20,756 bases of DNA from a virus, in IMG/VR virus record IMGVR_UViG_3300009788_000347, positions 1-20,756 of that record. The stretch is one strand, 5' to 3'. Shown here piece after piece: positions 10,057 to 20,756 of the stretch. Under the pieces are notes generated by a model that made no database searches, was not told where the DNA came from, and was given only the letters and a program-made list of their open reading frames with translations. The translations under genes and the position numbers were made by a program. How positions within the stretch are numbered: position 1 is the first letter of the stretch; the number at the start of each line of letters is the position of its first letter.

Positions 10057-12285
10057 CTATTCCGTGGGTGTCCGTGCAGCCGCCGCAGCAGCCGCCTCGC
10101 GTTTGTTCTGCTGGTCCATCAGGAGCTTCGCCGCGCTCACGCCGGCGTCCTGCTCCGCTCTGTCGCTCTTGACTGCCGCATCGAGAACCGACGTAGCGAG
10201 AGCACCCTGCTCCCGGTTGGCCTCGTTGCGGACGCGCTCCGAGTCGACCGCGAAGGTGCGGGCGATCTTGTCGCGCTCTCTGTCGTCCTTGAGAAGCATG
10301 TCCTGGGTCTTCAGCTCGATCTCGGCCTGGGCCTTCTCACCGTCCTGCTTGACCCGCTGCGCCTCGATCATGACCAACTGTTCCTCCGGGGAGGGCTGCT
10401 GGCCGGCCTGGGCCTGCTCTTGCTCGAACGCCTGCTGTTGCTCCGGCCCCCAAATGGTGAAGAACTCGTCGCCGGTCGGGAACCCGGCCAGCTCGACGAT
10501 CTTCTCCAGCGTGGTGCGGATGCCCTGCCAGGACACGAGAGGCGAGGCCAGCCCCATCAGCTCCTGCTGCTTCGCGAGCACGAGGCCGAGGATCTGAAGC
10601 TTGTCCTCGACGAGGCCAGTCCCGAGCGCCACGTTGACGCGCACGTCCATCGTGGCGTCCCACTTGTCCGGGTCCACCGAGATGTAATCGCCCCGGAGGC
10701 GGACGATCCGCCTGCGAGTCTCGTCCTTGTGGACCACGAGCAGCCGGAGGATGCCTTTGTACAGCTCGGCCACGCCCGTCTCCGCGAAGATGCGGGCGAT
10801 CATCTCCAACTGCTGCTGAGAGCCCGTGACGCTGGCCTGGACGGCCGCCTTCGTCGTGGACTGGAGGACGGAGGGGTCGAGCCCCTGCGACGCCTTAGAG
10901 CGCCCTGTGCGGTCTTCCTTGACCGAGTCGAGGTAGCGCAGCATCTCCAACGCCTCGCCACCCACCCAACGGTGGGGCACCTCTCGCATCATGTTCGGTC
11001 GCTTGGCCCGCACGATGCGGGACAGCTTCCGGGACATAACGTCCTTCATGTTCACTTCCGACGCCACGACTTCCGTCACGGGGTCGATCGCGGTGGCCAG
11101 CGAATCGAGGCTGGCCCGCGCGACGAAGGACTGGATCCTCTGGAGATCCATCGTGATGTCGGACATCGAGCTGCCGACGATCGTGTGGGGCTCCGGTTCG
11201 GGGCTCAGGAACGCGAACGGGATCTCGTCCACCAGCTCGCCCTCACCGTCGCCGTTGGCGATGATGTAGTCGGTGCCGATGCACTGATAGAAGCGCAGCT
11301 CCGCGATGTCGTCGCCGTCCACGTCGATTCGCGCATACAGCTCCGCGAACTGCGTCAACTCGGCGGCGTCGTCACGTACGGACTGCGTGGGAGAGTTTCC
11401 CCCGTCGACCCGGCGTGCAGCTCGCACCTCAGAGGTCAGGGCGTTCTCCATCGCCTCGCCGGCGTGCTCTTCGACCAAGTCCCGGTCGAGGCCCATGGCG
11501 ATCAGCTCGTCGGCCGGCACGTCCCGGATGTGCCCGATCAGCATGGCGTCGTGCTTGCTCCGCGCGTCCGGGCTCCAGATCATCTCTTCGGCCGGGATGG
11601 CGGCGAACCGCACCTTGCCCTCGGCGCTCATGAACCGCGCCTCTAGGTCGAACACCTCCTGCTGGTTGCCGTTGAGGCCCGCCTCTTCCGTCATGAGTAC
11701 GATGTCGGTGACGCCGATCTCGCTCTCCAGCACCGCCGAAAAGGCGCCGATCTCAGCGAGGGTCAGGGACTGGAACTTCTGCACCTGGGGCTTCTGGTTC
11801 CGCTCGAACCACCACTTCATGATCCCGAGCCGACGGACCAGAGCGTCCTTGAACCAGCTGTGGAACTCCAAGAAGCCGTCGTTGTCCTCGCGGATGACGA
11901 GGTTGACGAAGTCGGTCTGCTGCTTCGCCAAGTCCACGTCCTCTTCCTGCCGGCCGATGAACTCCACGACCCGCTCGGGGCCGAAGAACACGCGCAGCAG
12001 GGAGGGCATGGTCGCGCGGATGGCGTCCCGGACCACGGTGAGGACGATCTGTGACCGGCCCTCTACCTCGTTCCCGAACGGCTCGCCCTTGTAGTACTTG
12101 GTCGCCTCCGCGAGGAAGGGGTCCAGATTTTCCTCACGCCAGTGGCGGGCCTCTTCAGCCATCTCTTGGAGCTTGTTCCGCACGTCCTCGTTCTCGGGGT
12201 CTATAGACTCCGAGACGGTGGTCGGGCTTTCTTCCTGCTCCAGAATCGCCTGCTCGTCAGCGACGTAGTATTCTCGTCCGTCCAC
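10057..12285 (-). CDS. Portal protein (P22-like)
   Basis: This 742-aa protein starts at a GTG whose first G is the last base of the TerL stop (TAGTG), so its translation is coupled to TerL. After an acidic leader it has the P22-type start of helices (HWREENLDPFLAEATKYYKG), then GRSQIVLTVVRDAIRATMPS and LLRVFFGPERVVEF (residues about 76-110). Further on are a long central stem/clip region and a conserved MSDITMDLQRIQSFVARASL stretch. The C-terminal 130 residues (from about 605) are Gln/Glu/Lys/Ala-rich helix, matching the long barrel domain of P22-like portals. Length is typical. It forms the dodecameric DNA channel at one capsid vertex, binding TerL during packaging and the adaptor afterwards. 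The adaptor gene is present at 3940-4584. Confidence 0.9.
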   Translation of the reverse strand: MDGREYYVADEQAILEQEESPTTVSESIDPENEDVRNKLQEMAEEARHWREENLDPFLAEATKYYKGEPFGNEVEGRSQIVLTVVRDAIRATMPSLLRVFFGPERVVEFIGRQEEDVDLAKQQTDFVNLVIREDNDGFLEFHSWFKDALVRRLGIMKWWFERNQKPQVQKFQSLTLAEIGAFSAVLESEIGVTDIVLMTEEAGLNGNQQEVFDLEARFMSAEGKVRFAAIPAEEMIWSPDARSKHDAMLIGHIRDVPADELIAMGLDRDLVEEHAGEAMENALTSEVRAARRVDGGNSPTQSVRDDAAELTQFAELYARIDVDGDDIAELRFYQCIGTDYIIANGDGEGELVDEIPFAFLSPEPEPHTIVGSSMSDITMDLQRIQSFVARASLDSLATAIDPVTEVVASEVNMKDVMSRKLSRIVRAKRPNMMREVPHRWVGGEALEMLRYLDSVKEDRTGRSKASQGLDPSVLQSTTKAAVQASVTGSQQQLEMIARIFAETGVAELYKGILRLLVVHKDETRRRIVRLRGDYISVDPDKWDATMDVRVNVALGTGLVEDKLQILGLVLAKQQELMGLASPLVSWQGIRTTLEKIVELAGFPTGDEFFTIWGPEQQQAFEQEQAQAGQQPSPEEQLVMIEAQRVKQDGEKAQAEIELKTQDMLLKDDRERDKIARTFAVDSERVRNEANREQGALATSVLDAAVKSDRAEQDAGVSAAKLLMDQQNKREAAAAAAARTPTE

Positions 12286-13760
12286 TAGGGAACCCCCATC
12301 GATCGGTCAGGTAGCTCTTCGTTCCACGCGGACCCGCTGAAGCCCGTGCCATGTCCCATGAGCACGGCCACGTCCTCCGCGAAGGTCAGCATGAAGGCGT
12401 CCGCGAGATCGGGCGAAGCGACGCCCCGCTTCCGCATCTCGTCCTTACTCTCAACCTTGATCTTCCCGCTCGACTGATAGCTGTACGTCGGCTTCACCAG
12501 CTCCGACACGGTGATCTCGACCGGGCAGTGCTCTTTGCGACTGAAGGGCGGGAACTTCACGTCCTTGCCCTCGAACCACTCCCGGACCCTCCACCACAGC
12601 TCGTCGCGGAGTCGCATGAACCTATCGTCGATATTCGCGCTCTCACCGACGTTTATTCCACGCACGGGGAGCCCCAGCTCGATCAGCCGGTCCACCACGC
12701 CACCGCCCAGCCCGTTCACGTCGATCAGAATGGTCTCGGGCCGCTCCGACGGCATCGTCGCGTCCCACTTGCGCTTGATCCTCCCGGCCGTCTGCATCAG
12801 GTCGACACCTTCCCAGGTCTCGATGCTGACCAGCTCGCGCTTCGTGCGGACGGCCAGTGCGTTCCTGGCGGAGCCAAAGCGGGCCACGTCCACGCCCCAC
12901 ACGCAGGGGGCGCCGGGCACCGTCTTGATGTCGCGCGTCCTAGACGCCTCGACCAGCTCGAACGGGACGACGGTGTTCTCGTCGCCCTTCGGAAACTCCC
13001 CCAGGACCCGGATGCGGTAGGCATTTGACTCTTCGCCGTACCGCAGGGCGATGTCCTCGACGAAGTCGGGGATCACCCTGTCGCTCGGAATCCCGCTCGG
13101 CCAGTCCACGCTGGCGGCCCGGATGTGGTACGTCTTCCAGTTGTCCGCCATCTTGTTGAACACGTCGAAGAACAGCCCCGAGGTCCGCACCGGGTTCCCC
13201 AGCAAGATCGTCGTAGCGTTCTCACCTGACATGGAACCTGAGCCGGCCTCGAAGATCGGCTCCGGGATACCCGATGCCTCGTCCGCGATGATGAGGACGT
13301 GGTCGCTGTGGATCCCCTGGAGGGCTTCCGGCATCTCGGGCCGGGCGCTCCGGGCGCTGAAGAAGGACTCCGCCGGGCTCCCCAGCAGCTCGATACGGTC
13401 GCTCTTGAAGTTGAAGAGCGCGTTCAGCTGCGGCGGAAGCCGTTTGCCCCAGGACAGGATCTCCGTGAAGAGGGAGTCGAACAACTGCCCCTTCGTGGGG
13501 GCCGTGGCGACGGTCTTCTGCGGGAACCTCGTTAGCAACATGCACCAGACCATCCATGCCACGACGCAGGTTTTCCCGGGACCATGAGCGGACCGAATGG
13601 CGATACGCCGTTCGCCCCGCCCAAAGTCCTGCAGCACGTCACCCTGCCACTCATCTGGATCGGCCTTGAACACCTCCTTGACGAGGTTCACCGGGCCCAT
13701 GGCTCCCATGGGGGGACCGTAGCGTCCGATGAAGTCAAGCAGAATCTGGTGTGGCAGCAC
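12285..13760 (-). CDS. terL: Terminase large subunit (packaging ATPase/nuclease)
   Basis: This 491-aa protein carries both terminase activities. ATPase: Walker A at residues 57-64 (SAHGPGKT), Walker B HVLIIADEAS with D160-E161, and a coupling motif around LLGNPVRTSG (187-195). The adenine-side WQ (39-40) precedes them. Nuclease (RNase H fold): GVDVARFG with D291, ILIDVNGLGGG with D347, and DLADAFML with D451/D454, the expected metal-binding acidic residues. Start is GTG at 13760, placed directly after the stop of the fibre gene; the ribosome site is weak, so the true start could be the internal Met at about residue 18. It drives DNA into the procapsid through the portal. TerS lies about 5 kb upstream in the operon and not adjacent, as discussed in findings. 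Confidence 0.94.
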   Translation of the reverse strand: MLPHQILLDFIGRYGPPMGAMGPVNLVKEVFKADPDEWQGDVLQDFGRGERRIAIRSAHGPGKTCVVAWMVWCMLLTRFPQKTVATAPTKGQLFDSLFTEILSWGKRLPPQLNALFNFKSDRIELLGSPAESFFSARSARPEMPEALQGIHSDHVLIIADEASGIPEPIFEAGSGSMSGENATTILLGNPVRTSGLFFDVFNKMADNWKTYHIRAASVDWPSGIPSDRVIPDFVEDIALRYGEESNAYRIRVLGEFPKGDENTVVPFELVEASRTRDIKTVPGAPCVWGVDVARFGSARNALAVRTKRELVSIETWEGVDLMQTAGRIKRKWDATMPSERPETILIDVNGLGGGVVDRLIELGLPVRGINVGESANIDDRFMRLRDELWWRVREWFEGKDVKFPPFSRKEHCPVEITVSELVKPTYSYQSSGKIKVESKDEMRKRGVASPDLADAFMLTFAEDVAVLMGHGTGFSGSAWNEELPDRSMGVP

Positions 13761-13761
13761 T

Positions 13762-15294
13762 CTAGTAGACCCCGTACCGCGTGTTCAGGTAGTCGCGGAC
13801 GAGAATCCGATCAGCGTCCGACAACGCGGTCCGGTAGAAGATCACCGCCGCGATCGAGCCGATGAAGGGCTCCGTGTTCGCCTGCGTCCCGCCGACGTTG
13901 TAGGTCTCCAGCTGCTGCAGGACCGGGTTCCCGACATCTTCCTCCGCGCCGTCGTCGACCGCGATGTTCATGAAAGTGTTGTTCGACCGGTAGCTGATGA
14001 GGTACTTCGTGTTGTCCGCCAGCGTGGTGGACGTTTCGAGCCACCCGCCATTAGTGTCCCACCAGTACAGCCGGTTGTTCGCAGCGTTACGACGAGCCCC
14101 AAAGCTCATCCGGTTCGTAGCGATGGGGGACGAGAACTGCACCATGGTGGAGTGCCCGGGGGCGCCGGAGATCACTCCGGTCTTCAGTACGATGAACACG
14201 GTGATCGGTCCCAGCCCCGTACTCGCGCCCCTGTCCGCGTTCAGCATGTCTGTCTGCGAACCGTTCCAGAGGACGTGCTTCCGGGGGCTGGTGAACACGC
14301 TGTCCTTGACGAGCGCGTTTGCCGATGTGTTCTTCGTGAAGTCGTAACCGCTCCAGATGTCGACCCACGATCCGATCTGAGAATCCAGAGCACCGAGACT
14401 GCCCGCGTCCAGCCTGAACTCCTGCGTGCCAGTGACCGTCGGATATACCGGGATGTCCAGCTGGAAGGTCGAACCCGGGTAGAACGCCCCGGACAGCCTG
14501 TACAGCTCTACATCGAGGTTGTCGGTCACGATTGCCGTCGGCCAGCCGTCGTAGGGGACCTCGTCGCCTCCGAGGTCCAGAGTGGCTGTCCCGCCGGATT
14601 CAGTCGCGGTCCCCACCACGGCCTCGCCGGAGGTGAGGATCTTGAACTTCTGACTAGCTTCGAGCCCTGTGCAGGTCACGATCTTGTCGGACATGTAGAT
14701 CACGTCGTCGAAGAGGCATGACCCCGACGTACGGGCCCACAGGACGAGGATCCCGTCCTGCCCGTTCAGTGCGGCGTCGGTCTCAACGGCGCGAACGGCT
14801 CCGTCCCGCCAACTCCTTTGGTCGTTGTCCGCCACATATAGGGCGGCCAGCTTCTGCACGTTGTCCGGGTTGCCGAGACCCGAGTTGTCGAGGTTCGTGT
14901 ACGAGGTGTTCGACACACGGAAGAGCGTCGTGCTCCCCTCCAGATACCCCATGTAGTAGGCGTCGATGTCCGCGTTCCACCGAAGCTCGAAGGCCCCGTC
15001 TCCTGTGCCGCTACGAGTCATCTGGCACTGCGCGTATGACTTGTTCCGCGCCGCGACGGTCGTGATGGGCAGCTTCAGCCGTCCCCACGAGTTGACTTGC
15101 ACCTGCCCACCCACGATGGCGGACGTACCTCCGCTAGTGTCCCAAAGCGACAGGTCTCCGCTGAAGTCGTCCTTGAACAGGAGCCCTTCAGTGAGCTGCG
15201 AGAGGGGGTTGACGGCTGGGGCTCCGCCCGGGGTACTGGTCGGAACCCAAACCCCACTTCGAGTAGGGCTCCAGACAGCAGATTTGACGCTCAC
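13762..15294 (-). CDS. Fibre/appendage protein with two concanavalin/LamG-type domains
   Basis: This 510-aa protein starts at a GTG directly after the stop of the upstream 102-aa gene. Residues about 39-190 resemble a LamG/concanavalin-like jelly roll (FKDDFSGDLSLWDTSGGT, GAFELRWNADIDAYYMGYLE). Residues about 300-510 form a second one, ending in FIGSIAAVIFYRTALSDADR and VRDYLNTRYG, the ending typical of LamG-type domains in phage fibres and environmental surface proteins. Between them is a shorter beta-linker region. LamG domains usually bind carbohydrate. A virion attachment role is therefore likely. It is odd that this gene sits immediately before TerL and not with the other fibre genes at the left side; this could be a moron or a separate head/vertex fibre. 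Confidence 0.75.
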   Translation of the reverse strand: MSVKSAVWSPTRSGVWVPTSTPGGAPAVNPLSQLTEGLLFKDDFSGDLSLWDTSGGTSAIVGGQVQVNSWGRLKLPITTVAARNKSYAQCQMTRSGTGDGAFELRWNADIDAYYMGYLEGSTTLFRVSNTSYTNLDNSGLGNPDNVQKLAALYVADNDQRSWRDGAVRAVETDAALNGQDGILVLWARTSGSCLFDDVIYMSDKIVTCTGLEASQKFKILTSGEAVVGTATESGGTATLDLGGDEVPYDGWPTAIVTDNLDVELYRLSGAFYPGSTFQLDIPVYPTVTGTQEFRLDAGSLGALDSQIGSWVDIWSGYDFTKNTSANALVKDSVFTSPRKHVLWNGSQTDMLNADRGASTGLGPITVFIVLKTGVISGAPGHSTMVQFSSPIATNRMSFGARRNAANNRLYWWDTNGGWLETSTTLADNTKYLISYRSNNTFMNIAVDDGAEEDVGNPVLQQLETYNVGGTQANTEPFIGSIAAVIFYRTALSDADRILVRDYLNTRYGVY

Positions 15295-16655: not shown

Positions 16656-17222
16656 CTAAAGGTCGATTTGCCGGCCGTGCATCGTCCCCTCGAAGTGGTC
16701 GAGGGTCGAAAGGTTGTCTCGGACCAGGGTCTGGACGTATTGGCCCGGCGTCAGGAAGATCCCGTAGCCGATCGAGCGCGTCATCTCCCAGCGAACGGTC
16801 AGCTGGTCGACGGTGGCGCCCTGCCACACGATGCTCGTGTTCATCGCCCCGAGGTGCGCCCACATGATGTTGTGGGTCACGGGAGCGAACGAGGCGATCT
16901 CGGTGTCGTCGCTCTCGTGGACGCTGATGACTACGCCGTTCGCGAGCTGCGCGAGACTCCCGAAGAGCTGCGGCTCGATGCCCGGGTCCGCGACGTGCCA
17001 CTCGCCCATGGACAGGATGATGACCTTGTCCGCCGGGCAGATGACCTTGAACTCCGCCGGGGTCGTCCCGTCGATGGCCATGTCGTTCGTGACGCCTGCC
17101 CCGTCCAGCGAGAACTCCTGTACGAAGATTTCGCTAGGCGGGATGAGCTGCGGCGCCGTGAACCGGTCGTCCGTCGGGGTCCGCAGGTGCTGGCTCAGAT
17201 TCCGGTTGGTGAGCCAGCTCAT
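16656..17222 (-). CDS. Phage structural-type protein of unknown function
   Basis: This 188-aa soluble protein begins at an ATG overlapping the stop of the previous small gene (ATGA), with an AGAGG ribosome site. It has a beta-rich pattern (NDMAIDGTTPAEFKVICPA, DKVIILSMGEWHVADPGI, FGSLAQLANGVVISVHES) and ends with DHFEGTMHGRQI. I recall proteins with 'NMAVDGST..eF......D..I......D......FG....L.NGi.i' from environmental podovirus-like phages, where they are annotated as hypothetical or virion proteins. No catalytic motif is seen. Function is unknown; its position among small coupled genes does not settle it. Confidence 0.65.
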   Translation of the reverse strand: MSWLTNRNLSQHLRTPTDDRFTAPQLIPPSEIFVQEFSLDGAGVTNDMAIDGTTPAEFKVICPADKVIILSMGEWHVADPGIEPQLFGSLAQLANGVVISVHESDDTEIASFAPVTHNIMWAHLGAMNTSIVWQGATVDQLTVRWEMTRSIGYGIFLTPGQYVQTLVRDNLSTLDHFEGTMHGRQIDL

Positions 17223-17323
17223 GAGCGGAACCTCTTCCAGAGGCGCCGCCCGCTCTTACGTAGCGGCGCCCACCGCGCCTGAAGCACGAGAAGGAAGATC
17301 AGGCCCAACAGGACTTCGGTCAT
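17219..17323 (-). CDS. Tiny membrane protein (34 aa)
   Basis: A 34-aa frame starts at ATG 17323 overlapping the stop of the gene before it (ATGA) and ends overlapping the ATG of the gene after it (ATGA). Coupling on both sides is the main evidence that it is translated. It starts with a hydrophobic segment (VLLGLIFLLVLQA) followed by a strongly basic tail (RKSGRRLWKRFRS). That positive-inside layout suggests a single-pass inner membrane peptide, small enough to be a holin-like or membrane-modulating factor. No further assignment is possible. Confidence 0.5.
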   Translation of the reverse strand: MTEVLLGLIFLLVLQARWAPLRKSGRRLWKRFRS

Positions 17324-17616
17324 ATCTCCGAGTGCTCCACGATCCACTCCGGGCTCACGTCACCGAACTTCCGCTCGATGAAGTGGGCGATGAACAGCTG
17401 CTCGTGGCAGTCGATGGGAGGACTGAGGTCACGTTGCCCCAGGCGCACCCACCGCTGCCCCGTGAAAACCGGGATTCCCTTCTCCCGCTTCCCGCGAATC
17501 TCCAGCCCGGGGACCTTCCCCATGCCGACCTCGCGGGCCAGTTGCTCGTTCAGAGCGGCGAGGCTCATGCGCCGGTCTTCAGATAGCCCATCATTCCGAA
17601 CTTCATATAGCGTCAC
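17320..17616 (-). CDS. Small hypothetical protein next to tRNA-Tyr
   Basis: This frame encodes 98 aa from GTG 17616, only eight bases past the tRNA-Tyr 3' end. No ribosome site is visible there, so translation more likely starts at the internal ATG at 17568 (82 aa, weak GAAG eight bases upstream). The product is soluble with the segments RGKREKGIPVFTGQRWVRLG and HEQLFIAHFIERKFGDVSPE. I do not recognise it. The stop overlaps the ATG of the next membrane peptide gene. If the tRNA is cut from a common transcript, the resulting mRNA would have a very short leader. Confidence 0.55.
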   Translation of the reverse strand: MTLYEVRNDGLSEDRRMSLAALNEQLAREVGMGKVPGLEIRGKREKGIPVFTGQRWVRLGQRDLSPPIDCHEQLFIAHFIERKFGDVSPEWIVEHSEI

Positions 17617-17624
17617 CTATTGAG

Positions 17625-17707
17625 TGGAGCGGGGAGGGGTCGAACCTCCACAGCGCCCAGGCGTCCGGGTTACAGCCGGATGGGCTCACCAAGTGCCCAG
17701 CCGCTCC
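17625..17707 (-). tRNA. tRNA-Tyr (anticodon GTA)
   Basis: A class II cloverleaf folds on the minus strand. The acceptor is GGAGCGG with CCGCTCC plus A, and the D-stem is GGGC/GCCC. The anticodon arm is TCCGG-CTGTAAC-CCGGA (anticodon GTA). The variable arm is long, as expected for bacterial tRNA-Tyr, and the T-arm is GGAGG-TTCGACC-CCTCC. The CCA end is not encoded. It starts four bases after a 34-nt hairpin in the transcript. Confidence 0.9.
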
Positions 17708-17849
17708 ATGTCCCAGCGGTATCCCCGTTGGGGGACCGCCGGGAGTCGAGTGAGCGCCCTGCCTGCACCTTCTAGGGAGGAAGGGACCCTCACCGTGGTA
17801 CGCCGGAGTGGTATCTCCGTTTGGAGTGGTATCCCCGGCGTGGGGGTAA
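17708..17849 (-). ncRNA. Structured spacer between tRNA-Ile and tRNA-Tyr
   Basis: This 142-nt stretch has no convincing reading frame and holds three hairpins. One is at 17800-17841: a perfect 7-bp outer stem (ACGCCGG/CCGGCGT) around a near-symmetric internal loop and a CTCC/GGAG stem. One is at 17768-17784 (CCTTC/GAAGG with a seven-base loop). One is an imperfect palindrome at 17711-17744 of about 14 pairs. The word GGTATCCCCG occurs at 17718 and 17829, and the variant GGTATCTCCG at 17811. It may be a processed RNA or a decayed tRNA; the identity is unknown. Confidence 0.35.
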
Positions 17850-17923
17850 TTCGGGCGGGAGGATTTGAACCTCCGACTGCCCGCGTATCAGGCGGGATCT
17901 CTACCGGACTGAGTTACACCCGA
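17850..17923 (-). tRNA. tRNA-Ile (anticodon GAT)
   Basis: A cloverleaf folds on the minus strand. The acceptor is TCGGGTG with CGCCCGA (one G-T pair) plus A. The D-arm has CTC/GAG pairs and the expected GG in the loop. The anticodon arm is CCCGC-CTGATAC-GCGGG (anticodon GAT), and the T-arm is GGAGG-TTCAAAT-CCTCC. CCA is not encoded. Its first base directly follows the last base of tRNA-Trp. Confidence 0.9.
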
Positions 17924-17993
17924 CAGGCCCATGAGGGATCGAACCCCACACAGCACGGTTTGGAGCCGCGCCCGCCACCCTGGCGTTGGACCT
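17924..17993 (-). tRNA. tRNA-Trp (anticodon CCA), atypical D-arm
   Basis: The acceptor is AGGTCCA with TGGGCCT plus discriminator G, which suits tRNA-Trp. The anticodon arm is CGCGG-CTCCAAA-CCGTG (anticodon CCA), and the T-arm is TGGGG-TTCGATC-CCTCA. At 70 nt it is three bases short of normal. The D-arm is reduced to a 4-bp stem with a 3-5 base loop (CGCC-AGGGT-GGCG) and an extra GG before the anticodon stem. No CCA is encoded. Confidence 0.75.
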
Positions 17994-18005
17994 AGATTTT
18001 GCCGC

Positions 18006-18089: not shown

Positions 18090-18235
18090 TAGACGCGGCT
18101 GGCGAGGGTCGGCACCCACCCGATCATGCCCCACACGTCCGGGCCACCGTCCAGGCCGATTATCACATCGGAGTAGAGCGTATGGCTTGTTCCACGTTCT
18201 GGAATCTGGAACACGAGGCTTGTGATGTCGCGCAT
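18089..18235 (-). CDS. Small hypothetical protein (48 aa)
   Basis: I chose the ATG at 18235 because a GGAG lies seven bases upstream, although the frame stays open further. The 48-aa product is soluble with mixed residues (MRDITSLVFQIPERGTSHTL, then DVIIGLDGGPDVWGMIGW). Codon use has mostly G/C third positions like the rest of the operon, supporting real coding. The stop is coupled (TAGTG) to the tiny basic frame. No family is recognised. Confidence 0.5.
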   Translation of the reverse strand: MRDITSLVFQIPERGTSHTLYSDVIIGLDGGPDVWGMIGWVPTLASRV

Positions 18236-18669: not shown

Positions 18670-18903
18670 TCACCCCGAGATGAGGCGTTGGTTGAGGCGT
18701 GCGGTCAACAGTCCGCTGTTCTCCATGTCCACCGCCTTCGAGTTGGGATCGATCAGCCAGTGCAAGCGGACGATCAGCCTCGCCTTCTCCGCCTGCTCAC
18801 CTGTCTTCACCCCGTCGAGCCAGTCGTCAGCCTCACTCTTCGGCACCCGCCTCCGTTGCTCGCTCTCCATCTGGTGGAGTAGAGCGTACACTCGGTCGAG
18901 CAC
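18670..18903 (-). CDS. Small helical hypothetical protein downstream of TerS
   Basis: The frame encodes 77 aa from a GTG at 18903 with GGAG nine bases upstream; the same frame is open to 18942 with no ribosome site there. The product is helical and charged: LDRVYALLHQMESEQRRRVP, then EADDWLDGVKTGEQAEKARL and LTARLNQRLISG, with W/H/D-rich midsection LHWLIDPNSKAVDMENSG. I do not recognise it. Its first 71 bases overlap the 3' end of the TerS gene, where TerS is low in complexity. It might be a TerS partner or an unrelated small protein. Confidence 0.5.
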   Translation of the reverse strand: MLDRVYALLHQMESEQRRRVPKSEADDWLDGVKTGEQAEKARLIVRLHWLIDPNSKAVDMENSGLLTARLNQRLISG

Positions 18904-19390
18904 CGTCTCCTTCTCCACTGTCCAGCAGCTCCACTTCAGCAACGGGGATCGGCTCCCCTTGTATCGGCATGCGCCCGACCTCTCGAAGGGCGTCGAGGTG
19001 TAGACTGGACAGGTCGAGGGCTACTCCTATCTGAAGCTTGGCGTCGTCCCCGTACTGAGCCCGGTCTCTCTTGCTCGCCAACCACCGCCGGTGTTCGGCT
19101 CGACTCTTCGCCTTCTGTACGTCGGGCCCACTCTCGGTGCTCGCGTTGTCTAGTATCTCACCCGCCTCTTCCACCAGGGCACCAGCTTGTGCGCTCTTAG
19201 CGTCGAGGTAGGCCGCCTTCCTGGCCGGCGTGGCGTTGCACCACTTCCTCATGGTCTCCCGACTCACGCCGTAGGTCTTGGCGACTGAGACCAGCGTCGA
19301 GCCGGACGCGATCAGGTCGAGAACCACGTCGTCTCCACCCTCGCCTTCGATCCGCTTCGCCAGTTGTCGAGTGATCGGTTGTCCTGCCAC
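18833..19390 (-). CDS. terS: Terminase small subunit (Sf6-like, HTH)
   Basis: The 185-aa product starts at GTG 19390 (GGGGAG nine bases upstream). Residues 31-51 form a helix-turn-helix (STLVSVAKTYGVSRETMRKW). These are followed by YLDAKSAQAGALVEEAGEIL (61-80) and the signature VQKAKSRAEHRRWLASK (91-107), then AQYGDDAKLQ (111-120). This 'helix-turn-helix, ARE..A..LADEI, RL..DAR.WLASKL.P..YGD' layout is that of Sf6-type terminase small subunits, which recognise the packaging site and pass DNA to TerL. The C-terminal 40 residues are low-complexity and overlap the next gene. It is the first gene of the leftward operon and adjoins the divergent control region. A transcription-regulator role cannot be excluded on the HTH alone. 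Confidence 0.78.
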   Translation of the reverse strand: MAGQPITRQLAKRIEGEGGDDVVLDLIASGSTLVSVAKTYGVSRETMRKWCNATPARKAAYLDAKSAQAGALVEEAGEILDNASTESGPDVQKAKSRAEHRRWLASKRDRAQYGDDAKLQIGVALDLSSLHLDALREVGRMPIQGEPIPVAEVELLDSGEGDGARPSVRSTPPDGERATEAGAEE

Positions 19391-19496
19391 AGACCTTGAC
19401 TCCCCTTGTGTGTATCACGGGGAGCGACGTTGTACCGCGTACACCGCTCGGTCAGGGCACGACTGGCCGCCTCGCGCGGGGGCTGCAACTGAGTTC

Positions 19497-19648
19497 CAGT
19501 AGAGCATGCTATAAGTCGTTACTATACTACTACCTACGCTCTACTGCAGAGATAGTAGAGAATAGTAGAGCAACTAGCCCTACTCAGGGCTCAGTAGAGC
19601 GTAGGTAGTTACAGTGTAACGACATAGCAAATGCTCTACTCTCTACTG
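19497..19648. repeat. Large inverted repeat made of two long elements and half-sites
   Basis: The element at 19508-19546 (plus) recurs as its reverse complement at 19592-19628. Over the 32-bp core (19515-19546 against 19592-19623) 27 positions match: GTCGTTAC, a variable middle, then ACTACCTACGCTCTACTG identical in both. Outer half-sites CAGTAGAGC (19497-19505) and GCTCTACT-CTCTACTG (19633-19648) extend the symmetry. Between the arms are TAGTAGAGA (19553) and TAGTAGAGC (19563). Confidence 0.8.
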
Positions 19649-19817
19649 CGAACTGCCCAAACCGCTTCCCTTACTCCGTGATACACTCCATTCGCCCCCG
19701 ATTCTGTTGTACACACGGTGCAGTCATACGTCATGTCGTGATACCACTTGTACTTACAGCCGTGGCTTACATAACACACTCGCTGTATAAGCAGCCATTC
19801 TCATCGTGTTGAGACGA

Positions 19818-19854
19818 GCTATGTCGTTACTGGCCAACCACCTATGCTCTACTG
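19818..19854 (+). repeat. Third copy of the long element
   Basis: It starts GCTATGTCGTTAC (the same 13 bases, reversed, as the end of the copy at 19592-19628) and ends ACCTATGCTCTACTG, with the same spacing as the other copies. It lies about 15 bases upstream of the sigma-54-like -24 box and about 70 bases upstream of the first rightward gene. That is a sensible place for an activator or repressor site. Confidence 0.75.
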
Positions 19855-19868
19855 GAGAACGTGCGGCC

Positions 19869-19885
19869 GTGGCACGAGACGTGCA
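19869..19885 (+). promoter_or_regulatory. Candidate sigma-54-type (-24/-12) promoter
   Basis: The bases GTGGCACG-AGAC-GTGCA match the -24/-12 consensus (TGGCACG, four bases, TTGCW) except for one T-to-G change, with the invariant GG and GC exactly ten bases apart. A start near 19895 would give a leader of about 30 nt before the ATG at 19926. Function is inferred from consensus alone. Confidence 0.4.
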
Positions 19886-19925: not shown

Positions 19926-20063
19926 ATGATCGGACGAACACTGGCAGTCTTCTCTGGACTCACTCTTGGCGCGTGGCCGGTGGCTGCGCTCGTACCCCTT
20001 GCGGTAGGGGTCGCCGTCGCCCATGTTGTCTACCGCACCCTCAACCTGTGGAGGACAGCATGA
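19926..20063 (+). CDS. Small membrane protein (45 aa), first gene of rightward operon
   Basis: I chose the ATG at 19926 because GGAGG lies five to six bases upstream; the frame is open further upstream but crosses the repeat element, so a longer start is unlikely. The product has a long hydrophobic stretch (LAVFSGLTLGAWPVAALVPL, then AVGVAVAHVVY) that could cross the membrane once or twice, with a basic end (RTLNLWRTA). The stop overlaps the next ATG (ATGA), so the two genes are translationally coupled. The function is unknown; early small membrane proteins of phages often target host functions, but nothing here shows that directly. Confidence 0.6.
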   Translation: MIGRTLAVFSGLTLGAWPVAALVPLAVGVAVAHVVYRTLNLWRTA

Positions 20064-20756
20064 GAAGCTTGGAGACGATCAACCTCGAAGCGATCAGGAG
20101 CGGTGGCGAGGCTCGCACCAGCTCCAACGTCTACGCGAACGCCCTGGCCACGGCGGCCGGCGGCTACGTGTCTCGGGACGACGACGGCACGTACGTCGTG
20201 CGTCTCGTGAAGCTCACCACCGACCGTGACCGCTCGGTCAGGGGCGACAGCGCAGAGGCACAGCGGAAGGACGACGAGGCATGGGCCAGGATCGTGGCCA
20301 CCGCTGACGAGATCCTGAACGAGCAGAACGCCGCCGAGCGGGCCCGTGACACAAGGGCGCTCGGATTCAAGCACGGTGGCGCCGTCTACCTCTCCGACTC
20401 CTTCACCACCCTGCGGGACAAGGTACTGGAGCTGGGCGCCCACCGTGTGAACGGCGAGCCCGGCACCGGGGTGGACATAAAGAAGGTGGTGGTGGCCGTC
20501 GACCCCGAGGCGTTGCTCGCCCTCTCCATTGACTACGCTCTGATCGACCTCGACGAGAGCTTGCCCACCGCTTCCCTGCTTGCGGCAGCTCAGGCAGTCA
20601 TGGACGAGGCCGACGACGCGATCAAGGGCGACGCGATCAAGCGTGACCTCGAAACCCTGGCCCGGTGGTCCGACGAGTCGCTGGCCCGCCAGGAAGCGTC
20701 ACGGGCGACCTACGAGGCGTACTACCCACCTCCGGCGCTCGGCATTGAGGTGGCGG
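20060..20756 (+). CDS. Rightward-operon protein, unknown (3' end cut by window)
   Basis: The frame is open from ATG 20060 to the window edge (232 codons). The start overlaps the stop of the previous gene and a GGAGG lies close upstream. The protein is charged and soluble with no signal peptide. Features: SSNVYANALATAAGGYVSRD and GTYVVRLVKLTTDRDRSVRG near the start, a helical AWARIVATADEILNEQNAAE, a KKVVVAVDPEALLALSIDYA segment, and a near repeat AIKGDAIKRD. I do not recognise a family. The plus orientation and location across the control region suggest an early/middle gene set distinct from the late operon. The missing C-terminus limits any assignment. Confidence 0.7.
   Translation, partial: MRSLETINLEAIRSGGEARTSSNVYANALATAAGGYVSRDDDGTYVVRLVKLTTDRDRSVRGDSAEAQRKDDEAWARIVATADEILNEQNAAERARDTRALGFKHGGAVYLSDSFTTLRDKVLELGAHRVNGEPGTGVDIKKVVVAVDPEALLALSIDYALIDLDESLPTASLLAAAQAVMDEADDAIKGDAIKRDLETLARWSDESLARQEASRATYEAYYPPPALGIEVA

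Follow-up and report, generated by a model that had tools for sequence, protein, structure and literature searches.

A probable iteron replication origin between the small terminase gene and a divergent operon of an SU10-type phage

Genes and repeats of the control region

The window, by which we mean the whole 20,756-base stretch of DNA that was analyzed, comprises the entire virus record and consists mostly of leftward late genes, which Pfam and PHROG identified as those of an SU10-type phage. The first leftward late gene encodes a small terminase subunit (terS, 18833-19390, minus strand; Sf6-like, PF20901 with E 7.8e-17, PHROG 1482). The leftward genes further include those for the large terminase (12285-13760; PHROG), an SU10-type portal protein (10057-12285; Pfam/PHROG), a scaffold protein and an SU10-type major capsid protein (both Pfam, PHROG). 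To the right of the small terminase gene starts a rightward operon of small genes without assigned function. Its first ORF (19926-20063, plus strand), recognized by eye from the sequence, has 45 codons and the second (20060-20756, plus strand) is, according to its translation, truncated by the contig end. The second ORF gave no PHROG match and has a 67-residue homologous stretch in two related loci, L011 and L013. No initiator gene was recognized on the window contig, from which part of the genome is missing. Three tRNA genes (Tyr gta, Ile gat and Trp cca) are located at 17624-17994 on the minus strand; a tmRNA called by ARAGORN at 17043-17715 appears spurious and overlaps protein genes and the tRNA-Tyr gene.

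A repeat array is situated between terS and the divergent rightward operon. An earlier note on this DNA had described three copies of an element with fixed spacing and a variable middle, and a pattern search bore this out. The 32-bp pattern GTCGTTAC-N6-ACYACCTAYGCTCTACTG occurs exactly three times without mismatches, at 19515-19546 (copy 1, plus), 19592-19623 (copy 2, minus) and 19823-19854 (copy 3, plus), and shuffled sequence gave 0.00 occurrences even when up to three mismatches were allowed. The large inverted repeat that the note had seen in two of the copies was recovered as 49-nt arms around copies 1 and 2 (19498-19546 and 19592-19640) that are 80% complementary. The proposed ATAGC/GCTAT flank is present but does not keep a strict register, the core being preceded by GCTATAA in copy 1 and by GCTAT in copies 2 and 3.

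The densest repeating unit is shorter than the 32-bp element; it is CTCTACT/AGTAGAG, a putative iteron half-site with which copy 1 also ends. It occurs eight times on both strands of the about 350 bp at 19481-19860, with a maximum of five in 2000 shuffles, in agreement with the extra half-sites reported around and between the copies. A repeat scan located GCTCTACTG at 19497-19505 (minus), and the half-site count gave TCTCTACTA and GCTCTACTA, 10 bp apart, at 19553-19571 (minus) and the overlapping pair GCTCTACTC and TCTCTACTG at 19633-19648 (plus). The array thus has the repeat clustering by which an iteron origin is recognized. Across the remaining contig there are three further occurrences of the half-site, two of which have the 11-mer TACGCTCTACT in common with copies 1 and 2; these outlying copies are at 18172-18182 and, within terS, at 18878-18888, both on the minus strand.

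Arrays and DNA stability in related phages

A search of IMG/VR with the large terminase yielded at least 80 loci. The nearest among the matches listed were L010 (100% identical), L011 (88%), L012 (86%), L013 (83%), L014 (72%) and L015 (63%). Three of these (L010, L012 and L014) end before the control region, and L011, L013 and L015 are the three congeners that cover it. The 32-bp element was found in none of 14 related loci checked, even at six mismatches, and a lone GCTCTACT was present in four of them; a search of IMG/VR with the 32-bp motif also gave no match. According to the earlier note, absence of the motif at the syntenic place of close relatives would refute its reading as a functional site. 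The sequence is indeed absent, but a literal reading misleads because another array of similar architecture occupies that place. Upstream of terS, L011, L013 and L015 have their own arrays on both strands, with cores GGGACGA, GGAACCG and GTAGCAGAGTT, respectively. On the 44,023-base contig of L015, the ends of which overlap over 137 bp at 99.3%, GCAGAGTT occurs nine times in the array and once elsewhere. Seven of the nine GGAACCG copies of L013 lie in the array and two outside; this array was missed by the repeat finder, which listed families for L011 and L015, and was found by eye and k-mer count. L011 has 15 copies of GGGACGA, seven in the array and eight outside. Five exact 8-mers recurred in three or more of the four control regions, which is within chance (null mean 2.0, maximum 7).

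Two minor observations concern repeats elsewhere in these contigs. In L011 (reverse complement) more GGGACGA copies adjoin a tRNA-like stretch at ~14069-14092, which puts them ~1.4 kb to the left of where terS starts and near the place of the window's outlier at 18172. In L015 an array stronger than the origin candidate occurs at ~34401-34800 in a pentapeptide-repeat ORF and probably consists only of coding repeats.

L111 has a weak array, and MW202496, a complete but distant relative, has a CGTAACAG array around TATATATAAA, located ~3 kb from terL in a genome with no annotated terS. Comparison of the window DNA with phage records gave no match, nor did tblastn with a 661-aa late protein. Searches with the window TerS alone, the RepA of L015, the right-hand gene and the TerL of L015 turned up no additional congener that includes the control region. 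In bacterial genomes a TerL profile found 35 loci, most of them in metagenome bins and the best 52% identical, from which no host could be named for the window's genus.

A nearest-neighbor stability scan placed the least stable 200 bp of the window contig at 19487-19686, a candidate unwinding element, and the least stable 50 and 100 bp at 19519-19568 and 19487-19586. An easily melted element, as expected of an iteron origin, is present at the array. The least stable 200 bp overlapped the array in the window and in all three covering congeners (4/4), and the chance of the least stable stretch being this near was 0.002 to 0.014 for each, with array limits that were set by hand. In MW202496 the least stable stretch likewise overlaps the array. 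The coincidence was absent in L017 and in 16 of 17 side-branch loci tested (see below), the exception being L134.

The GC-skew minimum of L015 is at 32,452, ~0.5 kb from the center of the array (~31,750-32,140). In L017 and MW202496 the minimum is also no more than ~1 kb from the array, and it is away from the array in MW202879 (~3 kb off) and L111 (far off). GC skew also tracks gene orientation, which confounds its use for calling origins. DnaA boxes are common, though not required, at iteron replication origins. No perfect box TTATNCACA was found in the window or in three congeners (L103, L104 and L108); the window has one TTGTACACA.

RepA and the array in the side branch

To the best 80 of 237 matches of a small-terminase search belong the relatives of MW202879, here called the side branch. 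Their TerS has 34-40% identity with that of the window. Sixteen loci were removed manually, in most cases because little upstream DNA was available or the match started deep inside the protein, and a few of them would have been testable; the other 64 were tested together with the window (65 rows). The array signal exceeded all 30 shuffles in 39 of the 65 rows. A RepA could be read at 33 of the 64 loci. Leaving out L136, L138 and L161, in which the longest ORF was not taken as RepA, and L112, which belongs to another lineage, gave a set of 29 that was not dereplicated. Omission of L120 because of its incomplete RepA left 28 loci for the analysis of co-variation, or 23 after dereplication.

In the side branch the array directly follows the stop codon of a gene for a RepA-like primase-helicase. 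The four RepA proteins that were scanned contain PriCT and AAA_25 (L119, L128 and L131) or VapE (L134). At 19 of the 29 loci two or three DnaA boxes TTATNCACA start within 250 bp of the RepA stop; the other ten have none. The repeat core varies by locus and includes TAAACCGG, TAAAGCGG, CCGCATTAG, GACCGGAC, GAAGGGAC, GGTTGCAC, GGAGATACC and others. Over the 23 dereplicated loci, core sharing correlated with similarity of the C-terminal 120 residues of RepA with r 0.68, and the partial correlation given TerS and the N-terminal part of RepA was 0.46 (p 0.0005). The N-terminal part gave r 0.58 and a partial correlation of -0.19, and added nothing once the C-terminus was known. For TerS the values were 0.27 and 0.19 (p 0.0025). 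Judged by these sequence correlations, the side-branch core goes with the RepA C-terminus much more closely than with TerS.

Pairs of closely related loci indicate how the cores change. Between L128 and L131, identity is 97.6% over the 1,177 bp that begin just past the array; through RepA and the array the two are ~65% identical or unalignable, and the similarity resumes at the RepA start (117 bp, 100%). Similarly L137 and L138, which are opposite ends of one contig, match at 97.8% identity over the 2,781 bp past the array and cannot be aligned in the array itself; no RepA was seen in L138. These patterns imply that RepA and the array move as a single cassette. The presence of one terS region with different arrays on a single IMG/VR contig (L137/L138) may reflect strain variants joined in assembly or a real duplication. 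A smaller change separates L119 and L143, which in most copies differ by one base in the core (TAAACCGG vs TAAAGCGG); the exception is the inverted copy behind the RepA stop, where the difference is another one. Their RepA C-termini are nearly the same, and the differences include A to S in the last predicted helix. Linkage of neighboring DNA accounts in part for the correlation between core and RepA and can itself give co-variation. A matched pair predicts a cassette that holds initiator and repeats together, so the cassette fits pairing.

A predicted model of the L119 RepA C-terminus (pLDDT 83.6, pTM 0.59) has an order of helices and strands that is compatible with a winged helix. At an E-value threshold of 0.001 it matched nothing in the PDB. 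Weaker matches, with Z 2.6-4.9 (best 4.9), were to cullin C-terminal, JetA cWHD, RctB and Clr domains, which we take to be winged helices, and were interspersed with unrelated folds such as glutaredoxins (Z 2.7-3.3). We name no family for the domain because these fold matches are too weak.

The same loci bear on the alternative that the array is a packaging site, a pac or cos region upstream of terS to which the small terminase binds. Such a function would agree with the location immediately before the terS gene, on its upstream side, in both the window and its congeners, with the two outlying copies in and left of terS, and with the small partial correlation that TerS keeps with the core. Within the genus it is inseparable from the origin reading since the congeners differ in TerS as well, being 62, 53 and 40% identical to the window in this protein. 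In the side branch, however, L128, L129 and L131 have TerS sequences that are identical in the compared part and the core of L131 is different, whereas L125 and L131 have the same core with TerS just 68% identical. These comparisons argue that the small terminase does not set the core. The MW202496 array ~3 kb from terL, in a genome without annotated terS, also speaks against packaging, and we consider this explanation unlikely.

The other two meanings that the earlier note had offered besides replication-origin iterons fared less well. Operators of a regulator that silences or activates both divergent operons would suit the divergent junction, the position of copy 3 just upstream of a promoter candidate (see below) and a small protein encoded in the rightward operon of L015 that by eye resembles an HTH regulator. 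Against this, the 44-kb relative L015 has a single array, the side-branch array follows a stop codon, and the congener arrays overlap the least stable DNA; an operator array thus appears quite improbable. Promoters of a T7-type single-subunit RNA polymerase, suggested by the fixed spacing in three copies and a partial likeness by eye of GCTCTACTG to the CACTATAG core of T7-type promoters, are hardly credible in view of the convergent copies, the different motifs at the same place in congeners, and the lack of a PF00940 match in the window (a partial genome), L015, L017 and L111 with a T7 control that was found.

The origin reading and the adjacent promoter candidate

The region is probably an iteron replication origin of the phage, with a recognition word that changes fast at a constant place; an origin is the only one of the three earlier proposals that found support. 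The interpretation follows from an array far above chance with congener arrays at the same place, from the least stable 200 bp at the array in 4/4 phages and in MW202496, and from the nearby skew minimum of L015. It further draws on the side branch, with its array after the RepA stop, its DnaA boxes, the co-variation of core and RepA C-terminus, and the exchange of cassettes. Sequence comparison shows co-variation with RepA and exchange of the cassette in the side branch only.

Replication would start at the window array. The CTCTACT half-sites would act as iterons on both strands around AT-rich, easily melted DNA. Binding of an initiator to the array would be followed by melting of the DNA inside it and loading of a helicase on the melted DNA, and the forks would depart from the junction of the leftward late genes with the rightward operon. 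The window contig has no initiator gene, so we infer that the array is read by a protein encoded in another part of the genome, most likely a RepA-like primase-helicase that binds DNA through its C-terminal domain.

Several known systems resemble this arrangement. The alpha protein of satellite P4 is a primase-helicase with a C-terminal origin-binding domain, and its origin consists of ori and crr with short iterons in both orientations. The second element, crr, would match the window's outlying copies; this likeness is one of layout, and P4 is a satellite phage, unlike the phages here. According to PMC7581432, the replication modules of SaPI and SCCmec combine a Rep or Cch2 helicase with an iteron origin, and their short iterons lie directly downstream of the initiator gene, as in the side branch, and are recognized by the C-terminal domain of the initiator. 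SaPI and SCCmec are islands, whereas the phages here are complete tailed phages, and the initiator gene is far from the array in L015 and presumably in the window. In the Vibrio satellite PLE, as PMC8263062 describes it, the DNA-binding domain of RepA varies together with the origin and the two are exchanged as one module, as in the side branch; the cognate pairing of RepA_N and origin was shown experimentally, and the iterons are required for cleavage by the nuclease Odn. PLE differs in that the DNA-binding domain of RepA_N is N-terminal, the iterons are semi-palindromes of ~30 bp and the initiator is, according to PMC7145576, not a predicted helicase or primase. The O protein and ori of phage lambda and Stx phages likewise have iterons beside an AT-rich unwinding region (PMC7466680). 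By analogy, the array most likely functions in the manner of the Rep-origin modules of SaPI/SCCmec and PLE (PMC7581432, PMC8263062).

If the origin reading is true, sequence conservation is the wrong test, since place and architecture are kept and the word changes. The natural pairs of initiator C-termini and repeat words would then form a data set for a DNA-recognition code and would serve the question of why phage origin specificity diversifies. A wider scenario is tentative and, in our estimate, rather doubtful. It holds that the origin stays at a fixed address and that its recognition word changes fast, in step with the C-terminal domain of the initiator, through swaps of RepA-origin cassettes and concerted single-base change (TAAACCGG to TAAAGCGG). 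Such change would be driven by escape from nucleases that target origins, from satellites or from co-infecting relatives, and in the window's genus the adjoining operon would depend on host sigma-54, which would couple infection to the physiology of the host.

Immediately to the right of the array, a sequence pattern identified a sigma-54-like -24/-12 site TGGCACGAGACGTGCA (TGGCACG-N5-TGCA) at 19870-19885 on the plus strand. Sigma-54 promoters have the -24/-12 form GG-N10-GC. The same site occurs with no mismatches upstream of the first rightward gene in all three covering congeners (L011, L013 and L015). All four syntenic sites have GG-N10-GC with TGGCACG, and 13 of 17 positions are invariant in their consensus TGGCACGRGWCSTGCRT. 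Single sites of this kind are expected ~1-3 times per contig by chance; as one alone is not significant, the argument is carried by the four syntenic sites. A backward control pattern, with no more than one mismatch allowed, matched about as often (6 of 7 records). L017 has an exact match at another place, L015 has two more of like score, and L111 has a related sequence with the wrong spacing. On its sequence and position we slightly favor the site as a candidate sigma-54 promoter beside the array, which would be used by sigma-54 and from which the rightward operon is probably transcribed. To find a sigma-54-like promoter kept at the same position in four phages of one genus would be unusual.

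Separately from these sites, inverted GTGTATCAC words are found at 19410-19418, left of the control region, and at 19678-19686 within it.
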